Notes under the pieces: generated by a model
Told to the model about the DNA's origin: nothing
The model's input: the letters and a program-made list of their open reading frames with translations, nothing else
Databases searched by the model: none
Translations under genes and position numbers: made by a program
Shown here: piece by piece, positions 1 through 25,563 of the stretch
Numbering within the stretch: the stretch's first letter is position 1
How the letters are laid out: each line of letters starts with the position of its first letter
IMG/VR virus record: IMGVR_UViG_3300008117_000120
Location: 1 to 38,445 of that record
Length of the DNA: 38,445 nt
DNA from: a virus
Direction: 5' to 3' (one strand)

Positions 1-414
1 ACTCAGGGAACTCAGGGTATTCAAGGAACACAGGGTATACAAGGTGTAACTGGTATTCAAGGAACTCAAGGTACTCAAGGCATACAAGGAATTACTGGAG
101 CACAAGGTGCTCAAGGCATAACTGGTATCCAAGGTACTCAAGGAATCCAGGGTATACAGGGTACTCAAGGTATTCAAGGAACACAGGGTGTACAAGGGGT
201 ACAAGGTATCCAAGGTACACAGGGTACTCAAGGTGTACAGGGTACCCAAGGAACTCAAGGCACCCAAGGAATTCAAGGTGTACAAGGTACTCAGGGTACC
301 CAGGGAACCCAAGGCATTCAAGGAACTCAGGGCACACAAGGAACTCAAGGCATTCAAGGAGTACAGGGTACTCAAGGAACTCAGGGTACACAAGGTATCC
401 AGGGTATTCAGGGT
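1..414 (+). repeat. Collagen-like Gly-X-Gln block A1 (partial)
   Basis: About 46 Gly-X-Y triplets, mainly GTQ and GIQ with some GVQ, GAQ and GVT/GIT, running in from the left edge and ending before 'GSAANS'. Gln fills most Y positions where animal collagen has hydroxyproline. Codons vary synonymously (CAA/CAG, GGT/GGA/GGC), so the protein pattern rather than the DNA is conserved. Confidence 0.9.
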
Positions 415-3400
415 AGTGCTGCAAACTCTATCTCAAATAATGTTAACAACTATGTAGTTACAGCTACAGGAAATGGAGCTACACCTTTTAACGGTGAGGC
501 TAATCTACAGTTTGATGGCTCTACTCTATCATTAACAGGATCCTTAGTACAATCAGGTTCTTCAGTAGCTGCCTCTTTAAGAGGAAGTGGATCAGGAGTA
601 TTTTCAGTAGACGGAACACTAGGAAGATTATTCCAAGTAGACGATACATTATCAGGATCACTCTTTAGTGTTAACACTGCAGGTGGTTTACCTGTAATTG
701 AGGCTTTCTCTGATAATACAGTTAGAGTAGGTCAATTTGGACAAAAAGCATTATTTGTATCTCAATCCAAAGTAGGTGTAGGTAAGGAAAGTGCTTTAAA
801 TGGTACTTTAGATGTTAGTGGATCTGCTACTATTACAGGATCTCTTAGTGTTTTAGGAGATATTACCTCAACTGGCACTATTACAGCACAAACAATTGTT
901 GCTCAAGTAATTACCTCATCAGTTGATTTTGTAACTGGATCTACTCGCTTTGGTACTTTACCTTCAGTAAACACACATCAATTTTCAGGATCAGTTTCAA
1001 TAACTGGTTCTTTAGCTTATACAAATATACCTTTAGGCTCAACTGAAACTAATATTGTAGTTACAGATGCCTCAGGTAATTTTAGATATAGAACGAATTT
1101 AAGCCTACAGGGAACTCAAGGTACGCAAGGAACACAAGGTACTCAAGGCATTCAAGGTGTACAAGGTACTCAGGGTACCCAGGGAACACAAGGAGTTCAG
1201 GGTGTTCAAGGAATACAGGGCACTCAAGGTACTCAGGGAATCCAGGGTACTCAAGGCACCCAAGGAACTCAAGGTATCCAAGGTGTTCAAGGTACTCAGG
1301 GTACTCAAGGCACTCAAGGAATCCAAGGCGTACAGGGAACTCAAGGCACACAAGGAACTCAAGGTATACAGGGCATTCAAGGTACCCAGGGAACACAAGG
1401 AACTCAAGGTATTCAAGGAGTGCAGGGTACACAAGGTACTCAGGGAACTCAGGGCATTCAAGGTACCCAGGGTACTCAAGGAACTCAAGGGATACAAGGT
1501 GTTCAAGGAACCCAAGGAACTCAGGGTACACAAGGTATCCAAGGAGTACAGGGAGCCCAAGGTACACAAGGAACACAAGGTATACAAGGGGTACAGGGAA
1601 CCCAAGGTACACAGGGAACTCAGGGTATTCAGGGCTCAGCTGCTAACTCAATTACAAATAATGTAAACAATTACGTTGTTACAGCTACTGGTAATAGTGC
1701 TACTCCATTTAATGGAGAATCAAACTTATATTTTGATGGCACTAGTTTAGGTATAGGCACTACAGTCCCAGGTAGAAAACTAGATTTGTCTATTGGAGGC
1801 CAAATGACTTTTGGAAATAATGTTGTAACAGATTCAACATCAGGAATATATTGGCATGATACCTCAAACTATGGAATATACCGTACATCAGGTGCTTGGA
1901 CTTCAAATACATATCAGCAATTAAAATTAGCTTGGTCTACAGGTATTATATTATCTCCAGGTGAAGGTGGAACTTATGATAAAAGTTATGTAGAAGTAAA
2001 TACAGGAAAGGGATTAATGGTTACATCTGGTAATGTTGGTATAGGCACTACAGACCCATCAACTAAACTCCATTTATATGAATCTACAGCAGCTGATGTT
2101 ATTTTAAGATTAACTCCTACTGATGGATCTTATGATCCTGTAATTCAACTTACAGGACAGGGTAATAGTATAGCAACTGAAGGTTTTGAAATTTGGTATT
2201 CTAATAATGTTGGTGATGTTCATTTATCAACAACATATGTTAATGATGCTGCCGCCATTCGTTTTCATACTAGAACAGGAGCATCAAAATCTACATCTAA
2301 TGAAAGATTAACAATAGCAGGTAATGGTAATGTTGGTATAAACACCACAAACCCAGGATATAAACTTGATGTTAATGGAGGATCAGCAGCTACATATATT
2401 GGTATTAAAGCATCAGGTGCAGGAAATGAAACTACATTAGCCTTTACTAATGTTAATGGTGATGCCTTTATAGGATTAGCAGGAGGAGCAGGCAATATTA
2501 TTACAGGTACAGCAGCAGGTGACTTAAATATCAATAATAGAACTGGTGGTAAAATTAATTTAAGTACCACTAGTGCAAATGCTCAGTTAACTATTAATGC
2601 TAGTGGTAATGTTGGTATAGGTACTACAAACCCAAATGCTAAACTTAATGTAGCCGGAGATACTAGTATAACAGGCTCTCTAGTACAATCAGGCTCTGGT
2701 GTAGCAGCCTCACTACGAGGTAGTGGATCAGCAGTATTCTCTGTTGATGGTACTTTAGGTCGTTTATTCCAAGTAGATGATTCACTTTCAGGATCATTAT
2801 TTAGTGTAAACACAGCTGGTGGTTTACCTGTAATTGAAGCATTCTCAGATAACTCAGTTAAAATTGGTAAATATGGGGCTGAATCAATTGTAGTATCAGG
2901 ATCAGGAGGTCCATTACAATTAAGTGGTTCAGTTAAATTAATAAGTTTAGGAACAGCATCCGATACTAATATAGTTGTATTTAATACAACAACTAAAACT
3001 CTTGGATATAATACAGCTTTGAGTTTGCAAGGAACCCAGGGTACACAAGGTACACAAGGCACTCAGGGTACCCAAGGAATACAAGGCATCCAAGGTACAC
3101 AGGGTATTCAAGGAACTCAGGGAACTCAAGGCATTCAAGGAGTGCAGGGTACACAGGGTACTCAAGGAACACAAGGAATACAGGGCACTCAGGGAACTCA
3201 AGGAACACAGGGTATTCAAGGCACACAAGGTACACAGGGAACTCAAGGCATTCAGGGAACTCAAGGCACACAAGGTACACAAGGTATTCAGGGTGTTCAA
3301 GGAACTCAAGGCACACAAGGAACTCAAGGTATTCAAGGTACTAATGCCTCTACCTCTATTACAAATAATACTAACAACTATGTTGTCACTGCTACTGGAA

Positions 3401-6400
3401 ATGGATCAACTCCATTCAATGGAGAATCAAATTTATATTTTGATGGAACTAACTTAGGTGTTGGAACTACATCTCCAAACTCTAAAATAACAGTAAATAC
3501 TGACTTTGCCTCTATTGTGGGTATGACAATTAGTACTGATAATGCTAATGATTCTCAAATAGTACTAAGAAAAGCAGCTAGTAAACCAGCTTTTGGAGTT
3601 TTAGCTTGGGATACTAACGTGTTTTTATCAGCAGGAGTATACTATGATGGTGGATCTTGGATTCACCATAGTGATGATACTAATAGCCAATTATTCTTCT
3701 TTAGCCCAGGACTTGGAATGAGATGGTATGCCTCGAGTGATTCATCTGTTAGCTGGAACGTAGCTAGTGATGAGCAGCTTTGGAATGACTCAGCAAACTG
3801 GACAAATTTAGTTCGCTCAACAAGAAGTGGAGATTCATATTTTACAGGAGGAAATGTTGGTATAGGTACTACAGGACCAAACTATCCTATTGATTTACAA
3901 CGTACAACTTCCCCATTAACCCTTAATTTAAAACTAAATAAAGGATCTGTAACAAATGATTATGCTGAAATAGCATTTCAATTATGGGATGGAGCGGGTA
4001 CTGGAGCTAACACATTTGGTGGTACTGGAAATTCAAGACCAAGTGTTGTTTTAAGAGCATTAAATGAAGATGGTAATAGTGCTGCTGGTGCTTTTATAGT
4101 AGGTACCTTTACAGGAGGTGCTACTAACTCTACATTAACTGAAAAGTTTAGAATATCAAGTGGGGGCAATGTTGGTATTGGTACTACAAACCCAACAGAA
4201 AAACTTCAAATCCAAACTGGTAATGTCTTTGTAGGAGGGATTACTGCTTCTACTCCTATAACAACAGGCACTCAGTATAAAATAAAAATGGGCCAGCAGT
4301 ACTGGAATAGTACAAAAGGTACAGATGGAAGTATTAAACTAGAACTATATAGTGTAAATTCTGGTGATACTTATGGAATAGGTGTAAGTGCTAGTGAATT
4401 AGAAATACAATCACAAGCAAATATTGGTTTTTATGCTGGAGGTTCTACTACAAGAACTCTTCGTATGCTTATAGAAGGGGCTAGTGGCAATGTTGGTATA
4501 GGTACTACAAACCCAGTAAATAGACTTTCTGTAGAAGGAGGTAGTATAAAACTTAATCATGCTAATGCAGCTGCCAATTATTATTTAGCTTTAAATAAAA
4601 AAACAGGCCAAGATGGAGGAATATTATTTCAAAGAGATAATGCTGAAGATTGGCAATTTGTTAATACTACTAGTGGAAACTTAACATTCTATTCATATGG
4701 TATTGGTTCTGAAGCTATCACATTCCAAAAATCAAGTGGTAATGTTGGTATAGGTACTACATCTCCAGTTGCTTTATTAGATGTTAGAGGTAGCTCTCAA
4801 GTTAGATCAATAACATTATCAGGTGCTTTAGTAGGAGATGATGCTAATGTAGGCTCAATGGATGGTTTAGTAGGATGGTATGTGGGTGATTCATATAATG
4901 CTACTGATAAAGTATGGTATGATATTTCTGGAAATGCTAACCACACAAATGCCTCTAAAGGATCACCGACTAAAGTAACATTTTCAGCAGGTAGCAGTAA
5001 TTCATACAAAACATTTAGTGTTGTAAGTGGTAGTACAAGTGATGGTTTAACTTTCCCATCAGCTATTTTACCAGGTACATTTACTTTATTCCATGTTACT
5101 AGATATATAGGAGGTGCTAAAAAAAGAATCTTTGATGGATACTCAGGTAACTGGTTATCTGGTTTTTGGGATGGTAATTCTGGTGTTGCTTACCATGAAG
5201 GATGGATTACAGACCAAACAAACCATTTTGGAAATAATTGGGTATTATCAACAGATCAAAACTCATTATATAGAGGACAAAGTGATGGTTCTTTATATTC
5301 AGCTACAGGTGGTGGAGGAGCATCAGCAAGATTAACAATTAATAATGGTAACTATACATCAGGTACAGGTGGATCTGTAGGTGCCGAAGTATCAGATTGG
5401 TTAGTAGCGGAAGTTATTGTATTTAATAGAACATTAACTACAGAAGAAATATTATATGTAGAAAATTATTTAGGTAGAAAATATGGTTTACCTTTATATA
5501 ATAACTATTTTCAAGGTAATGTTGGTATAGGCACTACAGCCCCAGTTAATAGATTACATGTAGTTGGATCTTCTTCAACTAATGAAAATATAACACCTAT
5601 CTTCATCACCCATGACTTTTCAGGAACTCATGGTTTTGGTTTAGCTATTTCTAGAGATGCTAGCACAAATACAGCTGCTTTATCTTTTGGTGCTGATAGT
5701 AGTACTAATGCTATTATAGCAGCTAATAATTCTGATTTAAGAATAGGTAAACAACAATCCTCAGCGTTTAGTGAGTATGTTAGAATTGACACTAATGGTA
5801 ATGTTGGTATAAACACTACAGCACCAGGAGCTAAACTTGATGTTAGAGGTAATAGTTTATTTTATAATACAGGAGCTGATACTTTCCTTACAATTCAAGG
5901 AAACTCATCATATGACCCTATTTTACAATTAAAATCAGATCAAAACACAATAGCGGACGAAGGTTTCCAAATGTGGTATACTAATGATGTAGGTAATATA
6001 CGTTTTGCTACTACATATCCTAATGATGCTGCTAGTATACATTTCCACACTAGAACAGGAGCATCAAAATCTACATCTAACGAAAGATTAACTATATTAG
6101 GAGGAGGAAATGTTGGAATAGGATCATCATCACCTGCTTATAAACTAGATGTCTCAGGCACAATCCGCGCTACAGGCGATGTTATAGCCTACTCAGATGC
6201 TCGTGTTAAAACAAATGTATTAACAATAGAAAAAGCTATTGAAAAAATAAAAGCATTAAGAGGTGTATCTTATACTCGTACCGACAGTGAAGACAAATCT
6301 GAAAAAATAGGTGTAATAGCACAAGAGGTACTTGAGGTATTACCACAGGTAGTACAACAAGATGAAAATGGAAAATATAGTGTTGCCTATGGTAACATGG

Positions 6401-16607: not shown

Positions 16608-16976
16608 ATGGCAGTTTCTTACAATTGGACAATCAACCCATTAGAGTGTTATCCAACCTCCTCAGAAGGAGCAGATTACGTGTTTATTGCTCACTGGCAA
16701 TTACATGCCTCTGAGGAATACAGCGGATCTCTTTACACAGCTACTAGTATCGGTACACAAGCCGTGTCTGGTTCTGCTAGCGGTAGTTTCATTCCTTTCG
16801 AGGAATTAACATTACCTGTAGTACAGGATTGGGTTACAACCGCAATGGGCCCTGATCAAGTAGCTAGTTTGGAAGCTGGTTTAGCACAAAACATTGCTAA
16901 CCAAATCAATCCACCAGTGGTTACTTTACAGTCTCCATGGTTGACCCCAGCACCAACTGGATCTGGATCTCTTTAA
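16608..16976 (+). CDS. Small tail-associated protein (DUF7936-like pattern)
   Basis: A 122-residue protein with an N-terminus of the form 'YNWTINPLECYPTSS' followed by 'DYVFIAHWQLHA'. It then has a Gly/Ser-rich strand region, a 'FIPFEELTLPVVQDWV' helix and a C-terminal 'SPWL' motif. Short phage proteins of this layout sit next to tail-fibre genes in many T4-like genomes and are annotated as domains of unknown function; I believe it fits that group (DUF7936) but cannot search. It has no signal peptide or membrane segment. Eleven bases separate it from the next gene. Confidence 0.6.
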   Translation: MAVSYNWTINPLECYPTSSEGADYVFIAHWQLHASEEYSGSLYTATSIGTQAVSGSASGSFIPFEELTLPVVQDWVTTAMGPDQVASLEAGLAQNIANQINPPVVTLQSPWLTPAPTGSGSL

Positions 16977-18019: not shown

Positions 18020-18553
18020 ATGTTAATAAAAACAGGTTCTCGTACAGGCATACTTGCCGATTATAATATCCAATTACTTAGAAATAAAGATTGGAGATTT
18101 GTAAATAAAAATGGTATTACCCATTTAGAAAAAGCATTTGAAGGAACTATATTTACTGATCATTCTCATTTTATAGAAAATTTTCTAAAATGTTTATACG
18201 ATAAAGAGTATAAATCAATACTGTGTGGAGGATTAGGATTAGGAATAGCACCCTATCTATCCCAACCATTCTGTAACACAATTGATGTAGTAGAGATAGA
18301 TCAAGATTTAATTGATTTAATTAACACAGCAGGATACTTATCATCTAAAGTAAATATGATTTGTGGTGATGTGTACACTTATAAACCACAACACAAATAT
18401 GATTTTATTTTAATGGATGTTTGGCAAAAAAATAGTAGTACATTTGATAGTGAGGTAGAAACAATAAAAAATAAATACTTGCATTATTTAAAAGATGATG
18501 GAACGTTATGTATTCCTTTAGATTATTTAGTAGGTAAGCCTTATAACCATTAA
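18020..18553 (+). CDS. Rossmann methyltransferase / spermidine synthase-like protein
   Basis: A 177-residue protein with a class I AdoMet-binding fold: motif I 'CGGLGLG' (residues 69-75), an acidic residue at the end of the second strand in 'VVEID' (Glu92), and a motif IV-like 'YDFILMDVW'. The spacing resembles spermidine synthase-like proteins, but it is shorter than a full spermidine synthase (about 280 residues), so a specialised small methyltransferase or polyamine-type transferase is likely. The substrate is unknown. It ends 36 bases before the next gene, where a class I promoter candidate lies. It may be the first gene of the modification cassette or the last of the tail run. Confidence 0.7.
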   Translation: MLIKTGSRTGILADYNIQLLRNKDWRFVNKNGITHLEKAFEGTIFTDHSHFIENFLKCLYDKEYKSILCGGLGLGIAPYLSQPFCNTIDVVEIDQDLIDLINTAGYLSSKVNMICGDVYTYKPQHKYDFILMDVWQKNSSTFDSEVETIKNKYLHYLKDDGTLCIPLDYLVGKPYNH

Positions 18554-18585
18554 TTTGGTTGTTAAAAATAGTTTTATTATATTTA
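18554..18585 (+). promoter_or_regulatory. Candidate class I promoter (TTTGG / TATATTTA) before the cassette
   Basis: TTTGGTTGT starts at 18554 and TATATTTA at 18578, exactly 24 bases later. This resembles the Bacteroidota -33 TTTG and -7 TAnnTTTG consensus. If spacing to the start site is standard, transcription would begin at or beside the ATG at 18590, giving a leaderless message. Confidence 0.6.
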
Positions 18586-18589
18586 GGTT

Positions 18590-19570
18590 ATGGAGAAAAA
18601 TCTAGTTAAACGTGTTATAGATGCTGGAGGTGATATTACTCCTCTCCTTATTCCTGCTGAACATACTAATGGTACTGGATTAATGAATCCATCTGTGATG
18701 GTAAAAGATGGAAAAATTACTGTCATTATTAGACATGTAAATTATACATTCTACCACTCAGAGAAAAAATTATTTCAACACCCATACGGACCATTAACTT
18801 ACATTCATCCAGAAAACGATGTTCGTTTACGAACATGGAATTGGTATTGTGAAATAGGTAATGATTTTAAGGTTAGTAAATATTATAAAGTAGATACTAG
18901 CCAATTTGACATATATGAGCCACTATGGGAATTTGTAGGATTAGAGGATGCCCGTATTATTGAATGGAATAATAAATTATATCTATCAGGAGTACGTAGA
19001 GATACTACTACCAACGGGGTTGGTAGAATGGAGCTATCTGAGATACAAGTAAATAAAGATAGTGTAAAGGAGATTAGTAGAGTAAGAATTGCACCACCAA
19101 ATGATCCAAACTCATATTGTGAGAAAAATTGGATGCCAGTTATAGATAAACCATTTCACTATGTAAAATGGGCTAATCCAACTGAGCTAGTTAGAGTAAA
19201 TCCTAATGCTGGTACATCACAAACAGTTCATGTAAGCAATCCTATTTCACTTCCAAGAGATTTAAGAGGTGGATCTCAAATCCTACCATTTAAAGATGGT
19301 TACTTTGCTATTACACATGAGGTAGATTTATTTAAGAGTGAAGAGGGTAGAAAAGATGCCGTATATTATCATCGCTTTATAGTATGGGATAAGGACTTTA
19401 ATATCATTAAAGTAACACCTGAATTTCATTTCATGGATGCCGATGTTGAATTCTGTATTGGATTAGCTGATTATGGAGATGAATATTTAATCACATTTGG
19501 ATTCCAAGATAATGCAGCATATCTATTAAGAGCATCTAAAACAGTTATAGAGGAGTTTATCAATGGATAA
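18590..19570 (+). CDS. GH130-like five-bladed beta-propeller protein
   Basis: A 326-residue protein patterned like GH130/GH43-type five-bladed propellers. It has 'NPSVMVKDGKITVIIR' (residues 33-48) as the first blade, 'GLEDARI' (117-123) corresponding to the G-x-x-D-P-R substrate motif, 'EKNWMP' (178-183), 'RGGSQ' (226-230) and His243. GH130 enzymes phosphorolyse or hydrolyse mannosides; related propellers occur beside glycosyltransferases, and some act in mannosyl transfer. No signal peptide is seen, so it should act in the infected cell. The stop overlaps the next ATG by 8 bases. The sugar substrate is not readable. Confidence 0.65.
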   Translation: MEKNLVKRVIDAGGDITPLLIPAEHTNGTGLMNPSVMVKDGKITVIIRHVNYTFYHSEKKLFQHPYGPLTYIHPENDVRLRTWNWYCEIGNDFKVSKYYKVDTSQFDIYEPLWEFVGLEDARIIEWNNKLYLSGVRRDTTTNGVGRMELSEIQVNKDSVKEISRVRIAPPNDPNSYCEKNWMPVIDKPFHYVKWANPTELVRVNPNAGTSQTVHVSNPISLPRDLRGGSQILPFKDGYFAITHEVDLFKSEEGRKDAVYYHRFIVWDKDFNIIKVTPEFHFMDADVEFCIGLADYGDEYLITFGFQDNAAYLLRASKTVIEEFING

Positions 19571-20696
19571 GATATACATTATAAATTATTTGGCCAATAA
19601 AATTAAGGCAAAATCATATCTTGAGATAGGTGTTGATCAAGGCATTAGTTTTAAAGATATAAACATAGAACATAAAGTAGGAGTTGATCCATTCTCACCA
19701 TATCCAGGAGTTATTAAAGAGGAATCAGATACTTTCTTTAAAACCAACACAGAAAAATTTGATATTATATTAGTAGATGGATTACATCATGCTGATCAAG
19801 TTTATAGAGACATTATTAATGCTTTAGAATGTTTAAACCTACATGGTTATATTATATGCCATGATATGCTTCCTACCAATTATGATATGCAAGTAATTCC
19901 ATTTAGTAGTGGAATGTGGACAGGTGATTGTTGGAAAGCATTTGTAGAATTAAGACAAACAAGAAATGATCTTGATATGTTTACTATAGACACCGATATG
20001 GGATTAGGTGTTATTAGAAAAGGTAAACAAACTTTATTAGATACAACTGATCCAATAAATTACTTTCACTTTAGCAACAATAAACATAAGTGGATGAATA
20101 TAGTTTCACTCCCTGATTTTTATAAAAAGATGGGTGAAAAAGATGTATTAAAAGCACTATTAAACCACTATATAGCCTACCCAAATAATCCAGAAATTAA
20201 CTTCTATATGGGTGTATATTATCAGGGTATAGGACAGACAGCATCAGCTGTATCATATTATTTAAGAGCGGCTGAAAGAACATATGATGATTTAGTGCGT
20301 TATGAATGCTTACTAAGGGCAGGAATGTGCTTTGATTCACAAGGTAGCAGAAATAATTCAGTAGAGGGAATGCTACAACATGCGGTAGCGCTAATGCCTT
20401 ATAGACCAGAGGGATATTATTATTTAAGTAGATTTTATGAGCGTGCTGAAAAATGGTTTAATAGCTATCTTATAGCTAGTATAGGTGATAAAGTAGCCAA
20501 TAGAGTTCCTACACCATTAAAAACAGATTTAGATTATCCTGGATTCTATGGTGTTATATTTGAAAGAGCAGTTAGTGCTTGGTGGTGTGGATTGTGTGAG
20601 GAATCGAGAAACATATTTAGATATTTATTAGAGAATGAACCACTAAATGATGTTCATAAACAAGCTGTATTAAATAATTTAAACCGTATAGGATGA
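19563..20696 (+). CDS. Methyltransferase fused to a TPR-like helical domain
   Basis: A 377-residue protein. Residues about 15-150 look like a class I methyltransferase of the Methyltransf_24 type: 'SYLEIGVDQG' (motif I, Glu21/Gly23), 'VGVDPF' (40-44), 'DIILVDGLHHAD' with Asp72, and 'ICHDM' with His100-Asp101. Residues about 190-377 are helical with TPR character ('NPEINFYMGVYYQGIGQ', 'RPEGYYYLSRFYERAEKW'), resembling repeats found in O-linked glycosyltransferases and their partners. Methylation of a sugar or protein side chain is plausible. The start overlaps the upstream gene by 8 bases and the stop shares ATGA with the next, so translation is coupled. Confidence 0.7.
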   Translation: MDKIYIINYLANKIKAKSYLEIGVDQGISFKDINIEHKVGVDPFSPYPGVIKEESDTFFKTNTEKFDIILVDGLHHADQVYRDIINALECLNLHGYIICHDMLPTNYDMQVIPFSSGMWTGDCWKAFVELRQTRNDLDMFTIDTDMGLGVIRKGKQTLLDTTDPINYFHFSNNKHKWMNIVSLPDFYKKMGEKDVLKALLNHYIAYPNNPEINFYMGVYYQGIGQTASAVSYYLRAAERTYDDLVRYECLLRAGMCFDSQGSRNNSVEGMLQHAVALMPYRPEGYYYLSRFYERAEKWFNSYLIASIGDKVANRVPTPLKTDLDYPGFYGVIFERAVSAWWCGLCEESRNIFRYLLENEPLNDVHKQAVLNNLNRIG

Positions 20697-21358
20697 AATA
20701 TATTGACAACAACCCAGAATCAGAATGGGGAATAGTGGAAACAGACCAGTGTGGAGTATCTAATTTAAAAGATAAACGATTCTTCGTTGTAGATAACTTC
20801 TACGCTGATCCTATAGCTGTAAGGAATTTTGCCTTACAACAAACATATTTTCCAGGAGAGGGTGCTGTAGGTCATCGCACTAGAAAACAATTTATGTTTG
20901 ATGGTGTAAGAGAGGCGTTTGAAAGTATTATTGGGGTAAAAATTGCAGATCGTGATAATGGATATGGATGGTTTGATGAGGGAATTAATGGACGCTTTCA
21001 ATATTGCCCTGCAGGTACACCATCAGTATTTCATTGTGATTCTCAAAAATGGGCAGCTGTAATTTATCTAACACCAGATGCCCCACCTCAATCAGGTACT
21101 AGCTTCCTTAGACATAAGGAAACTAAAATATTTCACAATAGTCAAATTAATTGGGATGCTGGTGAGGGATTTAAAGTATTTAACCAAAAAACATTTCTAG
21201 ACGGTACACCATACGAGACAGTTGATGTTGTAGGAAATGTATTTAATAGATTAGTTATATTTGATGGTGGATTAATCCACTCTGGAATAAATTACTTTGG
21301 ATGGGATATTGAAAGTAGTAGATTATTCCATATATTCTTCTTTAACGAGCAACAATGA
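20693..21358 (+). CDS. 2-oxoglutarate/Fe(II) oxygenase-like protein (DUF6445-like)
   Basis: A 221-residue protein carrying the full metal triad in correct order and spacing: His114-x-Asp116 ('FHCDSQKW'), distal His196 ('GGLIHSG') and Arg210 ('SSRLFHIFFF') for 2-oxoglutarate. The 'AAVIYLTPDAPPQSGTSF' stretch is the usual strand after the HxD motif. It resembles DUF6445-type relatives of prolyl hydroxylases. It probably hydroxylates a protein or sugar, but the target is unknown. Start and stop each share ATGA with a neighbour, locking its expression to the methyltransferase and the glycosyltransferase. Confidence 0.78.
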   Translation: MKYIDNNPESEWGIVETDQCGVSNLKDKRFFVVDNFYADPIAVRNFALQQTYFPGEGAVGHRTRKQFMFDGVREAFESIIGVKIADRDNGYGWFDEGINGRFQYCPAGTPSVFHCDSQKWAAVIYLTPDAPPQSGTSFLRHKETKIFHNSQINWDAGEGFKVFNQKTFLDGTPYETVDVVGNVFNRLVIFDGGLIHSGINYFGWDIESSRLFHIFFFNEQQ

Positions 21359-22122
21359 TACCAGTTATAGGAACAGCAGTTATGAAAAACCCTCATTGGG
21401 TAGAGCGCCTATACAAAAGTATAGACTATCCAGTAGATAACTTCGTTATATTCAACAATAACGGTAAGGGTGAAATAACACAAGAGCTAGAGGCGCTACG
21501 TGATATTGATCATAAATTTGTAAATAAACTTACAATATGCCATTTACCTACTAATTTAGGTGTATCATGTGTTTGGAATTTAATTATTAAATCCTATGTT
21601 AATGCACCTTACTGGATTATAGTAAATGATGATGTTGCATTTACAGATGGTTTATTAGAGGAAATGTATATAGCAGCTCAACAAGATGTTGGATTAGTAT
21701 TTCCATATGGAGGTGATTTTGGACAAGGTGCTTGGGATTTATTTCTAATTAAAGATTCAGTAATCCAAAGCCACGGACTATTTGATGAAAATCTAACACC
21801 AGCATATTGTGAGGATGCTGATTATATTATGCGTTTAAATAACCATCCAGTAAATAAAATATGCAATTTAAGTAAACCATATTTACATGGTCCTGGATTG
21901 TATAATGAATATTATACTCATGGTAGCCAAACTAAAAAATCAAGTATTGAGCTTAATGATAGATTAAACGAGATTAATTTAATTAACTTTAAATACATGA
22001 CCGAAAAATGGGGTGAAGGATGGCGCGTAACTGAGCCATACAGACATCCATTTAATAACGATACGTTGCCTCTATCCACGACCACTTATGACATATCATT
22101 TATAAGAAGTAAACAGATTTAA
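21355..22122 (+). CDS. GT2-like glycosyltransferase
   Basis: A 255-residue GT-A fold protein. It has an N-terminal strand 'IPVIGTAVM', 'NFVIFNNNG' and 'TNLGVSCVWNLII' (the nucleotide-sugar binding region of family 2 enzymes), 'YWIIVNDDVAF' with Asp92-Asp93 as the metal-binding DxD-type motif, and 'YCEDADYIMRL' with Glu153-Asp154 as the likely base region. No membrane segment is seen, so it is cytoplasmic. It shares ATGA with the oxygenase gene upstream. Such phage enzymes can glycosylate virion proteins, DNA or host surface; position behind Thr-rich fibres favours virion protein, by inference. Confidence 0.8.
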   Translation: MIPVIGTAVMKNPHWVERLYKSIDYPVDNFVIFNNNGKGEITQELEALRDIDHKFVNKLTICHLPTNLGVSCVWNLIIKSYVNAPYWIIVNDDVAFTDGLLEEMYIAAQQDVGLVFPYGGDFGQGAWDLFLIKDSVIQSHGLFDENLTPAYCEDADYIMRLNNHPVNKICNLSKPYLHGPGLYNEYYTHGSQTKKSSIELNDRLNEINLINFKYMTEKWGEGWRVTEPYRHPFNNDTLPLSTTTYDISFIRSKQI

Positions 22123-22128
22123 AACAAA

Positions 22129-22160
22129 TTTGGTTGTCTCCTAAAAAGATGATATATTTA
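22129..22160 (+). promoter_or_regulatory. Candidate class I promoter before the small-protein group
   Basis: TTTGGTTGT at 22129 and TATATTTA at 22153, the same 24-base phasing as three other sites. The predicted start near 22165 leaves about a 20-base leader before the ATG at 22185. Confidence 0.6.
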
Positions 22161-23433: not shown

Positions 23434-25563
23434 ATGGCAGAACAAATTTTATCTCCAGGCGTATTCCAAAATGAATCTGACCAATCGTTAGTTCAGAGGG
23501 GTATTCAAGGTACTGCAACAGCAATTGTTGGTCCAACTGTGTTGGGTCAACCATTCGTTCCTACCTATGTTACTTCTTACAGTGAATTCGCAGCAAAATT
23601 CGGAGAAACATTTAAAAGTGGTAGTTACAACTACGAATACTTTACATCAATGGCCGCTAGGGATTTCTTCCAAAATGGTGGTCAAACATTACTCGTAACT
23701 AGAATTGTAAATGGTAGTGGTAGCTCAGCAATGAGTACTTACGCTTCAGCTAGTGTTGGTAACCAAACTCCAACTACTGGTGATAAATTTGCTACTGGTA
23801 GTGGTGCTATAGCTGCTGCTTTTACTGCTAACCAAGAAGTTAGAGTAACTTACGGAAGTACTGTATATCGCTTTATTGCTGTAGATAACACAACTCTTGG
23901 TCCTCAAGATGATGTAGATGGTAACTTATATTACTTTGCTACAGGATCAACAGCAGCCGCTCAAGCTACTAACGTAGCAGCTGTAATTAACCGTGCAATA
24001 TCAGGATCTGCAGCTAGCGCTAGTGTAAACTTAGTAGTAGCTTCAACAAGTACTGCTACTTTAATTCTTTCAGGATCTTCAGCTGGTACATTTGCTAACG
24101 GAATTACAGTAGCAACTGGATCGGCTTCAAGTTTCTCTACTTTAATTACTTTAGGTGGTGGTACTAATACATCCGATACTGGAAATGCATTTGTACTTGA
24201 AACATTAGCTTGGGGTAATACAATGAATAACACCTCTAGCTTATCAGCAGGTGCTTTAGCTAGTGGTAGTACAGTAAACGTTCGTTGGGAAATTACGCAA
24301 GTAAGTACTGGTAGTGGTACATTTACCTTAGCTATTCGTCAAGGTAATGATAATACTGCTCAACCTAACTATATAGAAACATGGCCTAATTTATCATTAG
24401 ACCCAGCCTTACCAAACTTTATCTCTCGTGTAATTGGTGATTATAAACCAATGTTCCGTTTAGATGTTGATGGTGAGCCATATATTGATATTACTGGTTC
24501 TTACGCTAATGCTTCTCAGTATGTGCGTGTTAAATCAGTAAACCCAACAATTGATTCAATTGATAATAATGGATTCTTTAAATCAGGTTCCTTAAGCGGT
24601 AGCTTACCAGCATTAGGAAGTGGATCATATGGTGGTTCATTTGGTGGTGGTTTAACTGCTACTTCACTTGCACAATTAATGAACGAAAATATCACAGCAA
24701 CTAACGTTCAAGGTTTCCAACCAGCTGATTATATTACTGCTTTCAATTTATTAGCAAATAAAGATGATTTCCGCTTTAATGTATTATTAGCTCCAGGTGT
24801 TACTTTAGACAATAGTGCAGTATCAACTATGATTTCTACTTGTGAGGGTCGTGGTGATGCAATTGCTGTTGTAGACACTAAATTATATGGCGCTGTAGTA
24901 TCAACAGCTGCAACAGCTGCTGCTGGTCAAAACAGTAATTATGCTGCAACATATTGGCCTTGGGTACAGTTATTTAGCTCTGGATTAGGTAAGGCTGTAT
25001 GGGCTCCTCCATCAACAGTAATGGGTGGTGTTTATGCCTTCAACGATCAGGTTGCTGCTAGCTGGTTTGCTCCTGCAGGTTTAAATCGTGGTGGTGTTCC
25101 TTCAGTATTACGTGCTGAAAGAAAATTATCTCAAAACGATCGCGATACATTATATGATGCAAGTGTTAACCCATTAGCTACATTCCCTGGAGAAGGTGTT
25201 GTAGTATTTGGTCAGAAAACATTACAGAAAAAATCAACAGCATTAGATCGTGTAAACGTTCGTCGCTTATTAATTGCATTAAAAGATTACATTGGTCAAG
25301 TAGCTAATAACTTAGTATTCGAACAAAATACTAACGTTACTCGTAACCGCTTCTTAAGCCAAGTAAATCCATACATGGAATCAGTAGTACAACGTCAAGG
25401 TTTATACGCTTACAAAGTAGTGATGGATGAATCAAACAACACTCCTGATGTAATCGATCGTAACCAATTAGTAGGTCAGATCTATATCCAACCAACTAAG
25501 ACTGCTGAATTCATTATATTGAACTTCAACGTACAACCAACTGGCGCTACATTCCCTGCCTAA
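23434..25563 (+). CDS. 18: Contractile tail sheath protein (gp18-like)
   Basis: A 709-residue protein with the classic sheath N-terminus 'SPGVFQNESDQS' then 'GTATAIVGPTVLGQPFVP' and a 'SYSEFAAKFGE' segment. The C-terminus is the conserved core: 'RRLLIALKDYIGQVANNLVF', 'NPYMESVVQRQGLYAYKVV' and 'VGQIYIQPTKTAEFIILNF'. It polymerises around the tube and contracts at infection. Residues about 95-300 are Ser/Gly/Thr-rich and variable, likely the outward-facing insertion domains. It is slightly longer than T4 gp18 (about 660 residues). C-rich codons near the 3' end fit high expression. The tube gene follows after about 50 bases. Confidence 0.95.
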   Translation: MAEQILSPGVFQNESDQSLVQRGIQGTATAIVGPTVLGQPFVPTYVTSYSEFAAKFGETFKSGSYNYEYFTSMAARDFFQNGGQTLLVTRIVNGSGSSAMSTYASASVGNQTPTTGDKFATGSGAIAAAFTANQEVRVTYGSTVYRFIAVDNTTLGPQDDVDGNLYYFATGSTAAAQATNVAAVINRAISGSAASASVNLVVASTSTATLILSGSSAGTFANGITVATGSASSFSTLITLGGGTNTSDTGNAFVLETLAWGNTMNNTSSLSAGALASGSTVNVRWEITQVSTGSGTFTLAIRQGNDNTAQPNYIETWPNLSLDPALPNFISRVIGDYKPMFRLDVDGEPYIDITGSYANASQYVRVKSVNPTIDSIDNNGFFKSGSLSGSLPALGSGSYGGSFGGGLTATSLAQLMNENITATNVQGFQPADYITAFNLLANKDDFRFNVLLAPGVTLDNSAVSTMISTCEGRGDAIAVVDTKLYGAVVSTAATAAAGQNSNYAATYWPWVQLFSSGLGKAVWAPPSTVMGGVYAFNDQVAASWFAPAGLNRGGVPSVLRAERKLSQNDRDTLYDASVNPLATFPGEGVVVFGQKTLQKKSTALDRVNVRRLLIALKDYIGQVANNLVFEQNTNVTRNRFLSQVNPYMESVVQRQGLYAYKVVMDESNNTPDVIDRNQLVGQIYIQPTKTAEFIILNFNVQPTGATFPA

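Follow-up and report, generated by a model that had tools for sequence, protein, structure and literature searches.

A modular TPR/GH130-fold gene cassette accompanies proline-free collagen-like tail fibres in uncultured aquatic T4-like phages

Introduction

What is modified by four overlapping enzyme genes that lie close to the genes of two collagen-like tail fibres? The question is raised by an IMG/VR viral contig of 38,445 bases (IMGVR_UViG_3300008117_000120), analysed here over its whole length and referred to as the window, which carries a tail module of T4-like myophage type, with genes for the sheath (23434–25563), the tube, the hub of the baseplate and a wedge subunit resembling gp25. 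The four genes (the cassette; Table 1) encode a protein with a GH130/GT108 fold, a methyltransferase fused to a TPR domain, a 2-oxoglutarate (2OG)-Fe(II) oxygenase and a GT2-like glycosyltransferase. A first-pass annotation of this DNA had proposed that the cassette hydroxylates, glycosylates and methylates the phage's own fibres in the manner of animal collagen, and had named co-occurrence of the cassette with Gly-X-Gln fibres as a suitable check. Based on the analysis described below, we consider it reasonably probable (roughly 60%) that the four genes constitute one form of a modular cassette by which phages post-translationally modify the adjacent collagen-like fibres.

Results

To evaluate the link between cassette and fibre, contigs were gathered by means of a DNA pattern for four Gly-Thr-Gln-type triplets ((GTQ)4), which is blind to the cassette, and 35 of these, picked by length, were compared with 35 contigs carrying any Gly-X-Y run of 15 or more triplets; here and below, counts were derived from large non-random samples in which the contigs are mostly fragments. 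The TPR core (E<1e-50) was present in 27/35 of the (GTQ)4 contigs versus 1/35 of the other Gly-X-Y contigs (Fisher p=6e-11), with one further contig of the latter set displaying a TPR match at 4e-13, and GH130 was encoded by all nine of the GTQ contigs with a TPR core that were assessed for it (9/9). The proposed check thus returned a strongly positive outcome. In the reverse direction, 22 non-redundant cassette families had flanks of 7.5 kb or more to either side, and in 19 of these a run of at least 10 Gly-X-Y triplets was located within approximately 10 kb of the cassette, as against 1/26 loci of sheath relatives; the median distance from the TPR gene to the run was 1.9 kb over 65 families.

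The carriers of the cassette are uncultured aquatic T4-like phages. Among named phages, the best repeat-DNA matches to the window's fibre were obtained for DSL-LC02, S-SCSM2R and S-CRM01, the first two of which possess Thr/Gln-rich fibres together with the cassette and are the only ones of 50,697 phage records to encode GH130 and TPR. For S-CRM01 and Escherichia phage VR7, both with Pro-containing collagen-like fibres, no GH130/TPR core record was obtained and no cassette was seen in the regions read. The TPR core yielded five matches among cellular genomes of 84,980 species, mostly on contigs of metagenome-assembled genomes, and a cellular origin was rejected, as the one contig inspected closely (L354) belongs to a T4-like phage and carries neck and terminase genes, and another (L353) shares its gene order. 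On L354, which had been binned as Rhodobacteraceae, four radical SAM proteins (phrog_1802) are encoded close upstream of the GH130-TPR pair (275–4782).

The two fibres of the window contain at least 340 Gly-X-Y triplets, counted in runs of six or more and mostly Gly-Thr/Ile-Gln, which bears out the hundreds of triplets reported at first pass. The runs are 35–80 triplets long, and the longest in the second fibre (80) compares with a maximum of five over 200 shuffles. Position X is Thr in 180/340 triplets (53%) or else Ile, position Y is Gln in 318/340 (94%), and Pro occurs in a single triplet. Since the frame of the first fibre is open from base 1, the GTG at 1420 that had been listed as its start is artefactual, a product of open reading frame (ORF) calling. 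This composition extends to the cassette-linked runs in general, for which the medians (calculated without any locus fetched by the GTQ pattern) are 1.7% X-Pro, 36% X-Thr and 71% Y-Gln, as against 16%, 4% and 14%, respectively, in other viral Gly-X-Y runs; bacteria overall display 19% X-Pro and 32% Y-Thr (PMC8968730). Low GC content was rejected as the cause of the scarcity of Pro, as GC-matched fibres still differ in X-Pro (1.7% versus 7.1%, p=0.003) as well as in X-Thr and Y-Gln (p<1e-6). Furthermore, Thr in the triplets amounts to 30% in families with GH130 (37 families) versus 11% in those without it (five families, all of one lineage). The core tracks one particular fibre composition, Pro-free Gly-(Thr/Ile/Val)-Gln.

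This specificity bears on the main alternative, according to which the enzymes remodel the host surface (lipopolysaccharide, O-antigen or capsule), for example against co-infection or the sticking of progeny to debris, with the link to the fibres being an indirect one through a shared host-recognition region. Glycosyltransferases that pelagimyophages encode in their host-recognition region have been interpreted in this way (PMC7029224), and genes for GT17, GT25 and GT2 enzymes, for sugar activation (CTP_transf_like plus MannoseP_isomer) and for a heptose-kinase-like protein are found at some of the loci. However, surface remodelling predicts neither a preference for Gly-(Thr/Ile)-Gln over other collagen-like fibres nor the joint absence of cassette and fibre within one lineage; the radical SAM/SPASM and TPR domains described below are suited to protein substrates, and neither a flippase nor a polymerase was seen among the matches listed. 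We therefore regard it as unlikely. With regard to the sugar-activating genes, a cytidylyltransferase-like domain is fused to a mannose-6-phosphate isomerase cupin at eight loci near the cassette (L401:6406–7161 and relatives), and this fusion may possibly represent a gene for the supply of the sugar donor.

The boundaries of the cassette were defined by L273, a relative from the window's lineage with a sheath 82% identical. In this contig, both flanks (the methyltransferase gene upstream as well as the genes downstream) are kept at 86–87% DNA identity while exactly the four genes are absent. The 11-bp direct repeat AATTTGGTTGT is present as two perfect copies bracketing the cassette in the window, and as a single copy at the empty site of L273, where no Gly-X-Y run was found in the visible fibres. 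The four genes thus constitute a discrete unit, and this single pair of sequences is consistent with either gain or loss. All four lie on the plus strand with overlaps of 8, 4 and 4 bp, as the first-pass annotation had claimed, and they do lie beside and downstream of the fibres; an additional methyltransferase-like gene (18020–18553) is located upstream of them, which is retained at the empty site and is consequently outside of the inserted unit. The single promoter candidate ascribed to the cassette found no support, with promoter-like sites being fewer than in shuffled sequence (16 versus 29.6).

As a control for phylogeny, contigs of the window's sheath lineage were compared: three of them (the window, L002 and L005, the latter two having entered the comparison because they bear the cassette) possess the cassette together with (GXQ)6, and 29 possess neither (p=2e-4). 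Frequent carriage of the cassette by relatives devoid of such fibres would have spoken against the proposal and was not observed; the close relatives without the cassette are also without such fibres. In L002 (5497–9132), the cassette is 85–95% identical to that of the window, and the upstream methyltransferase gene is replaced by a P4H-type 2OG oxygenase (Pfam 2OG-FeII_Oxy_3, E=1e-14) and two DUF6734 proteins. The structural ORFs adjoining this oxygenase contain tracts of (Thr-Pro)n and of poly-Pro, which call to mind hydroxyproline-rich glycoproteins. This pairing was rejected as a general rule, being confined to one family, and L324 carries (TP)n without the oxygenase.

Two further alternatives may be weighed on these data. 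Instead of the Gly-X-Y blocks, the cassette may modify another virion protein of the locus (the DUF7936 protein, tail-tip proteins or fibre domains other than collagen), a suggestion that gains from the recurrence of DUF7936 genes beside the cassette and from the P4H-type oxygenase of L002 with its Pro-rich neighbours. Nevertheless, the DUF7936 gene adjoins the fibres in cassette-bearing and cassette-less relatives alike, the P4H/(TP)n pairing is that of a single family, and the tightest correlate of the cassette is the Gly-X-Gln composition, which renders this alternative rather improbable. Secondly, recombination within a hypervariable tail region may have carried cassette and GTQ fibre jointly, in the absence of any functional coupling. 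The short direct repeat around the cassette, the known hypervariability of the region (PMC7029224) and the modest within-genome proximity of the two elements are in keeping with such hitch-hiking. Against it stands an association that persists at TPR identities to the window of approximately 35–85% and across gene orders, and that follows the composition of the repeats beyond the presence of a fibre alone. In DSL-LC02, the cassette is flanked by a gene for a collagen-like protein and one for a tail fibre but lies on the opposite strand, which argues against simple hitch-hiking within an operon. Hitch-hiking is accordingly judged to be quite improbable.

The first protein of the cassette matches Pfam GH130 (PF04041) weakly (E=0.04; 13.3 bits versus a cut-off of 26), and it is accordingly treated here as a protein of the same fold that stands outside the curated family. 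A sequence-profile search of the PDB for solved relatives returned no credible match. An AlphaFold2 model built from 49 homologues (pLDDT 87) predicts a five-bladed beta-propeller of GH130/GT108 topology, for which the top Foldseek matches (E 2.7e-9 to 1e-6) are GH130 mannoside phosphorylases and GDP-mannose-dependent GT108 mannosyltransferases of Leishmania. The catalytic-Asp motif (E/Y)DxR is kept, with E119, D120 and R122 being invariant across the 49 homologues. Judging from the model, the protein is probably a beta-mannoside transferase/phosphorylase-type enzyme. Relatives of it are encoded by more than 600 stretches of viral contigs. It differs from the known GH130/GT108 enzymes (PMC4599007, PMC8950772), to which its identity is approximately 10–16%, in that its gene nearly always lies beside the TPR hub. 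A distant GH130-like 'beta-mannosyltransferase' (25% identity) is encoded by Actinomycetia phage DSL-LC01 (OQ999401.1; L426, 5802–8332) together with a TauD-type dioxygenase and a methyltransferase; neither a TPR core nor a Gly-X-Y run is in view there, and the same kinds of enzyme have perhaps been brought together independently at this locus.

In the second protein, the methyltransferase head scores above the gathering threshold of Methyltransf_24 (E=2e-8; 35.2 bits versus 26.3). Its model (pLDDT 92) resembles O-methyltransferases (class I SAM fold) in the head and, in the remainder, the TPR superhelix of OGT/SPINDLY (Foldseek E ~2e-5 to 5e-5) and CTPR; Pfam TPR_17 was detected in 39/77 of the TPR relatives. 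The TPR part is the invariable element, whereas the domains joined to it are exchangeable and occur in numerous combinations, comprising FkbM methyltransferase (23 of the 77 proteins), Methyltransf_24 (21), radical SAM (16, 14 of them with SPASM) and, more rarely, DUF6445 oxygenase (7), GT17 (2), GT25 (2) and GT2 (1). At one locus (L004), GH130 and TPR form a single protein, and one subgroup retains TPR and GT2 without GH130. Among 94 non-redundant TPR families, in which many of the contigs are fragments, GH130 is encoded by 85, the 2OG gene by 43, the GT2 gene by 39 and a methyltransferase head by 36. The GH130-like protein and the TPR domain form a phage-specific core to which the 2OG oxygenase is an optional addition (43/94).

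The third protein matches DUF6445 (E=9e-11) and phrog_1644 (E=1e-30), and the HxD...H...R motif of 2OG oxygenases (H114, D116, H196 and R210) is kept in 40–41 of 41 homologues, so that both the iron triad and the distal Arg for 2OG are intact, as in the 2OG-Fe(II) superfamily; a sequence search for solved relatives returned no credible match. The fourth is recognised as a galactosyltransferase by PHROG (E=5e-21) and falls short of the Pfam GT2 gathering score (E=0.002; 18.7 bits versus 23.3).

The cassette might alternatively modify DNA bases and thereby protect the phage genome. Phage glycosyltransferases and 2OG enzymes do act on DNA in other phages, PHROG names the methyltransferase of the second protein 'DNA methyltransferase', and a different glycosyltransferase of DSL-LC02 was assigned such a role by the authors describing that genome (PMC10611076). 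Against this, the cassette resides in the tail-fibre/neck region, its methyltransferase is fused to TPR and models as an O-methyltransferase fold, and it is missing from close relatives with the same structural backbone while being present only with one type of fibre. Moreover, the linked radical SAM/SPASM (peptide-type) and TPR (protein-binding) domains favour protein over DNA modification, and we consider a role in DNA modification to be very improbable.

Table 1. Positions of the cassette genes, the flanking repeats and neighbouring genes within the window
Feature	Position	Strand	Remarks
GH130/GT108-fold protein	18590–19570	+	326 aa; core gene
Methyltransf_24 (aa 1–165) fused to phage-specific TPR domain (aa 166–377)	19563–20696	+	377 aa
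2OG-Fe(II) oxygenase, DUF6445/phrog_1644 type	20693–21358	+	221 aa
GT2-like glycosyltransferase	21355–22122	+	255 aa
11-bp direct repeat AATTTGGTTGT, left copy	18552–18562	+	brackets cassette
11-bp direct repeat AATTTGGTTGT, right copy	22127–22137	+	brackets cassette
Collagen-like tail fibre, 5' end cut by contig start	1–6465	+	140 Gly-X-Y triplets; proposed substrate
Collagen-like tail fibre, 2591 aa	8819–16594	+	200 Gly-X-Y triplets in three blocks; proposed substrate
Methyltransferase-like fold, spermidine-synthase type	18020–18553	+	upstream neighbour, outside inserted unit
DUF7936 protein	16608–16976	+	recurrent neighbour; same family at ~10 cassette loci

Discussion

From the linkage of the cassette to one type of fibre we infer that the fibre is the substrate and Thr the likely acceptor. 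In the proposed scheme, the TPR superhelix would dock the extended fibre chain, as in OGT-type enzymes, and present it to swappable enzymes, which in the window are the methyltransferase and the 2OG oxygenase and elsewhere include domains of the radical SAM, FkbM methyltransferase or glycosyltransferase type. A short sugar chain, probably with a beta-mannose-type sugar, may be built on Thr side chains by the GT2 enzyme and the one with the GH130/GT108 fold. Oxygenase, methyltransferase and radical SAM, as optional steps in whichever order they might be applied, could further modify this glycan or the amino-acid side chains. The benefit to the phage may lie in the stabilisation or shielding of a triple helix without proline. 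Glycosylation of Thr is known to stabilise collagen (Bann 2000, as cited in PMC3368898) and could therefore stand in for the missing residue. More tentatively, the cassette may represent a previously undescribed, phage-specific system of a TPR hub with exchangeable heads and a GH130/GT108-fold enzyme, in which Thr-linked sugars replace stabilisation by Pro/hydroxyproline in Pro-free collagen. No published description of a TPR/GH130 cassette was found in the open-access literature, and a paper on DSL-LC02 calls that genome metagenome-assembled and is silent on the cassette (PMC10611076).

With respect to the first-pass interpretation, the tie between cassette and fibre is supported while the animal-like order of hydroxylation followed by glycosylation is not: the X and Y positions of cassette-linked fibres have medians of approximately 1% Pro and 0% Lys, so that a route via hydroxy-Pro or hydroxy-Lys, the products expected of prolyl and lysyl hydroxylases, is unlikely.

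A number of observations weigh against modification of the fibres. Three of the 22 well-flanked cassette families lack a visible Gly-X-Y run, S-CRM01 possesses Gly-X-Gln collagen without the cassette, and a contig of the window's own sheath lineage (L277, 2736–7052) encodes a fibre with 127 Gly-Thr-Ser/Gly-Thr-Thr triplets and likewise no cassette. Proximity of cassette and fibre within genomes is modest over eight long contigs (Fisher p=0.008), and was dropped as the main proof for being too weak on this number. Fibre composition does not differ in Thr, Lys or Gln according to the presence of the 2OG gene, which is accompanied by a small rise in X-Pro only (p=0.03, uncorrected). In addition, the GH130 assignment stands on a fold and one motif, and the co-occurrence could have arisen through a shared recombination hot spot or through phylogeny.

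If the fibres are indeed the substrate, the cassette would constitute the first collagen-modification pathway in bacterial viruses, as far as the literature found allows, and a natural way of keeping a collagen helix stable in the absence of proline. Genes for 2OG oxygenases, FkbM-type methyltransferases and radical SAM proteins that are found as orphans close to phage tail fibres, frequently under the label 'minor coat protein' or 'DNA methyltransferase', would thereby gain a function, and it would be implied that phages may diversify their receptor-binding fibres by chemistry besides sequence.

Elements of the proposed system have counterparts elsewhere. In O-GlcNAc transferase (OGT) and SPINDLY, a TPR superhelix selects protein substrates for a glycosyltransferase. 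The phage proteins resemble these in joining a TPR superhelix to protein-modifying enzymes, and differ from them in that the heads lie outside the GT41 family and alternate between methyltransferase, 2OG and radical SAM domains and glycosyltransferases of several families. Mycobacteriophage glycosyltransferases have been reported to glycosylate the capsid and tail-tube proteins of the virion (Freeman et al. 2023, as described in PMC12363180), and thus provide an example of tailed phages decorating their own structural proteins; the account given there describes no GH130/TPR core, 2OG oxygenase, radical SAM protein or collagen-like substrate. The Thr-rich collagen-like repeats of the Bacillus exosporium protein BclA are glycosylated by the organism that makes them (reviewed in PMC8968730), but these and other Gram-positive repeats mostly place Pro at X and Thr at Y, whereas the phage fibres place Thr at X and Gln at Y and are almost devoid of Pro. 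Finally, mimivirus is likewise a virus with collagen-like proteins of its own, which it modifies with a 2OG oxygenase and glycosyltransferases, namely the lysyl hydroxylase/glucosyltransferase L230 and R699 (PMC9546862); the mimivirus enzymes act on hydroxylysine, while the phage fibres are nearly without Lys or Pro and are accompanied by other enzyme families in a virus with a bacterial host.

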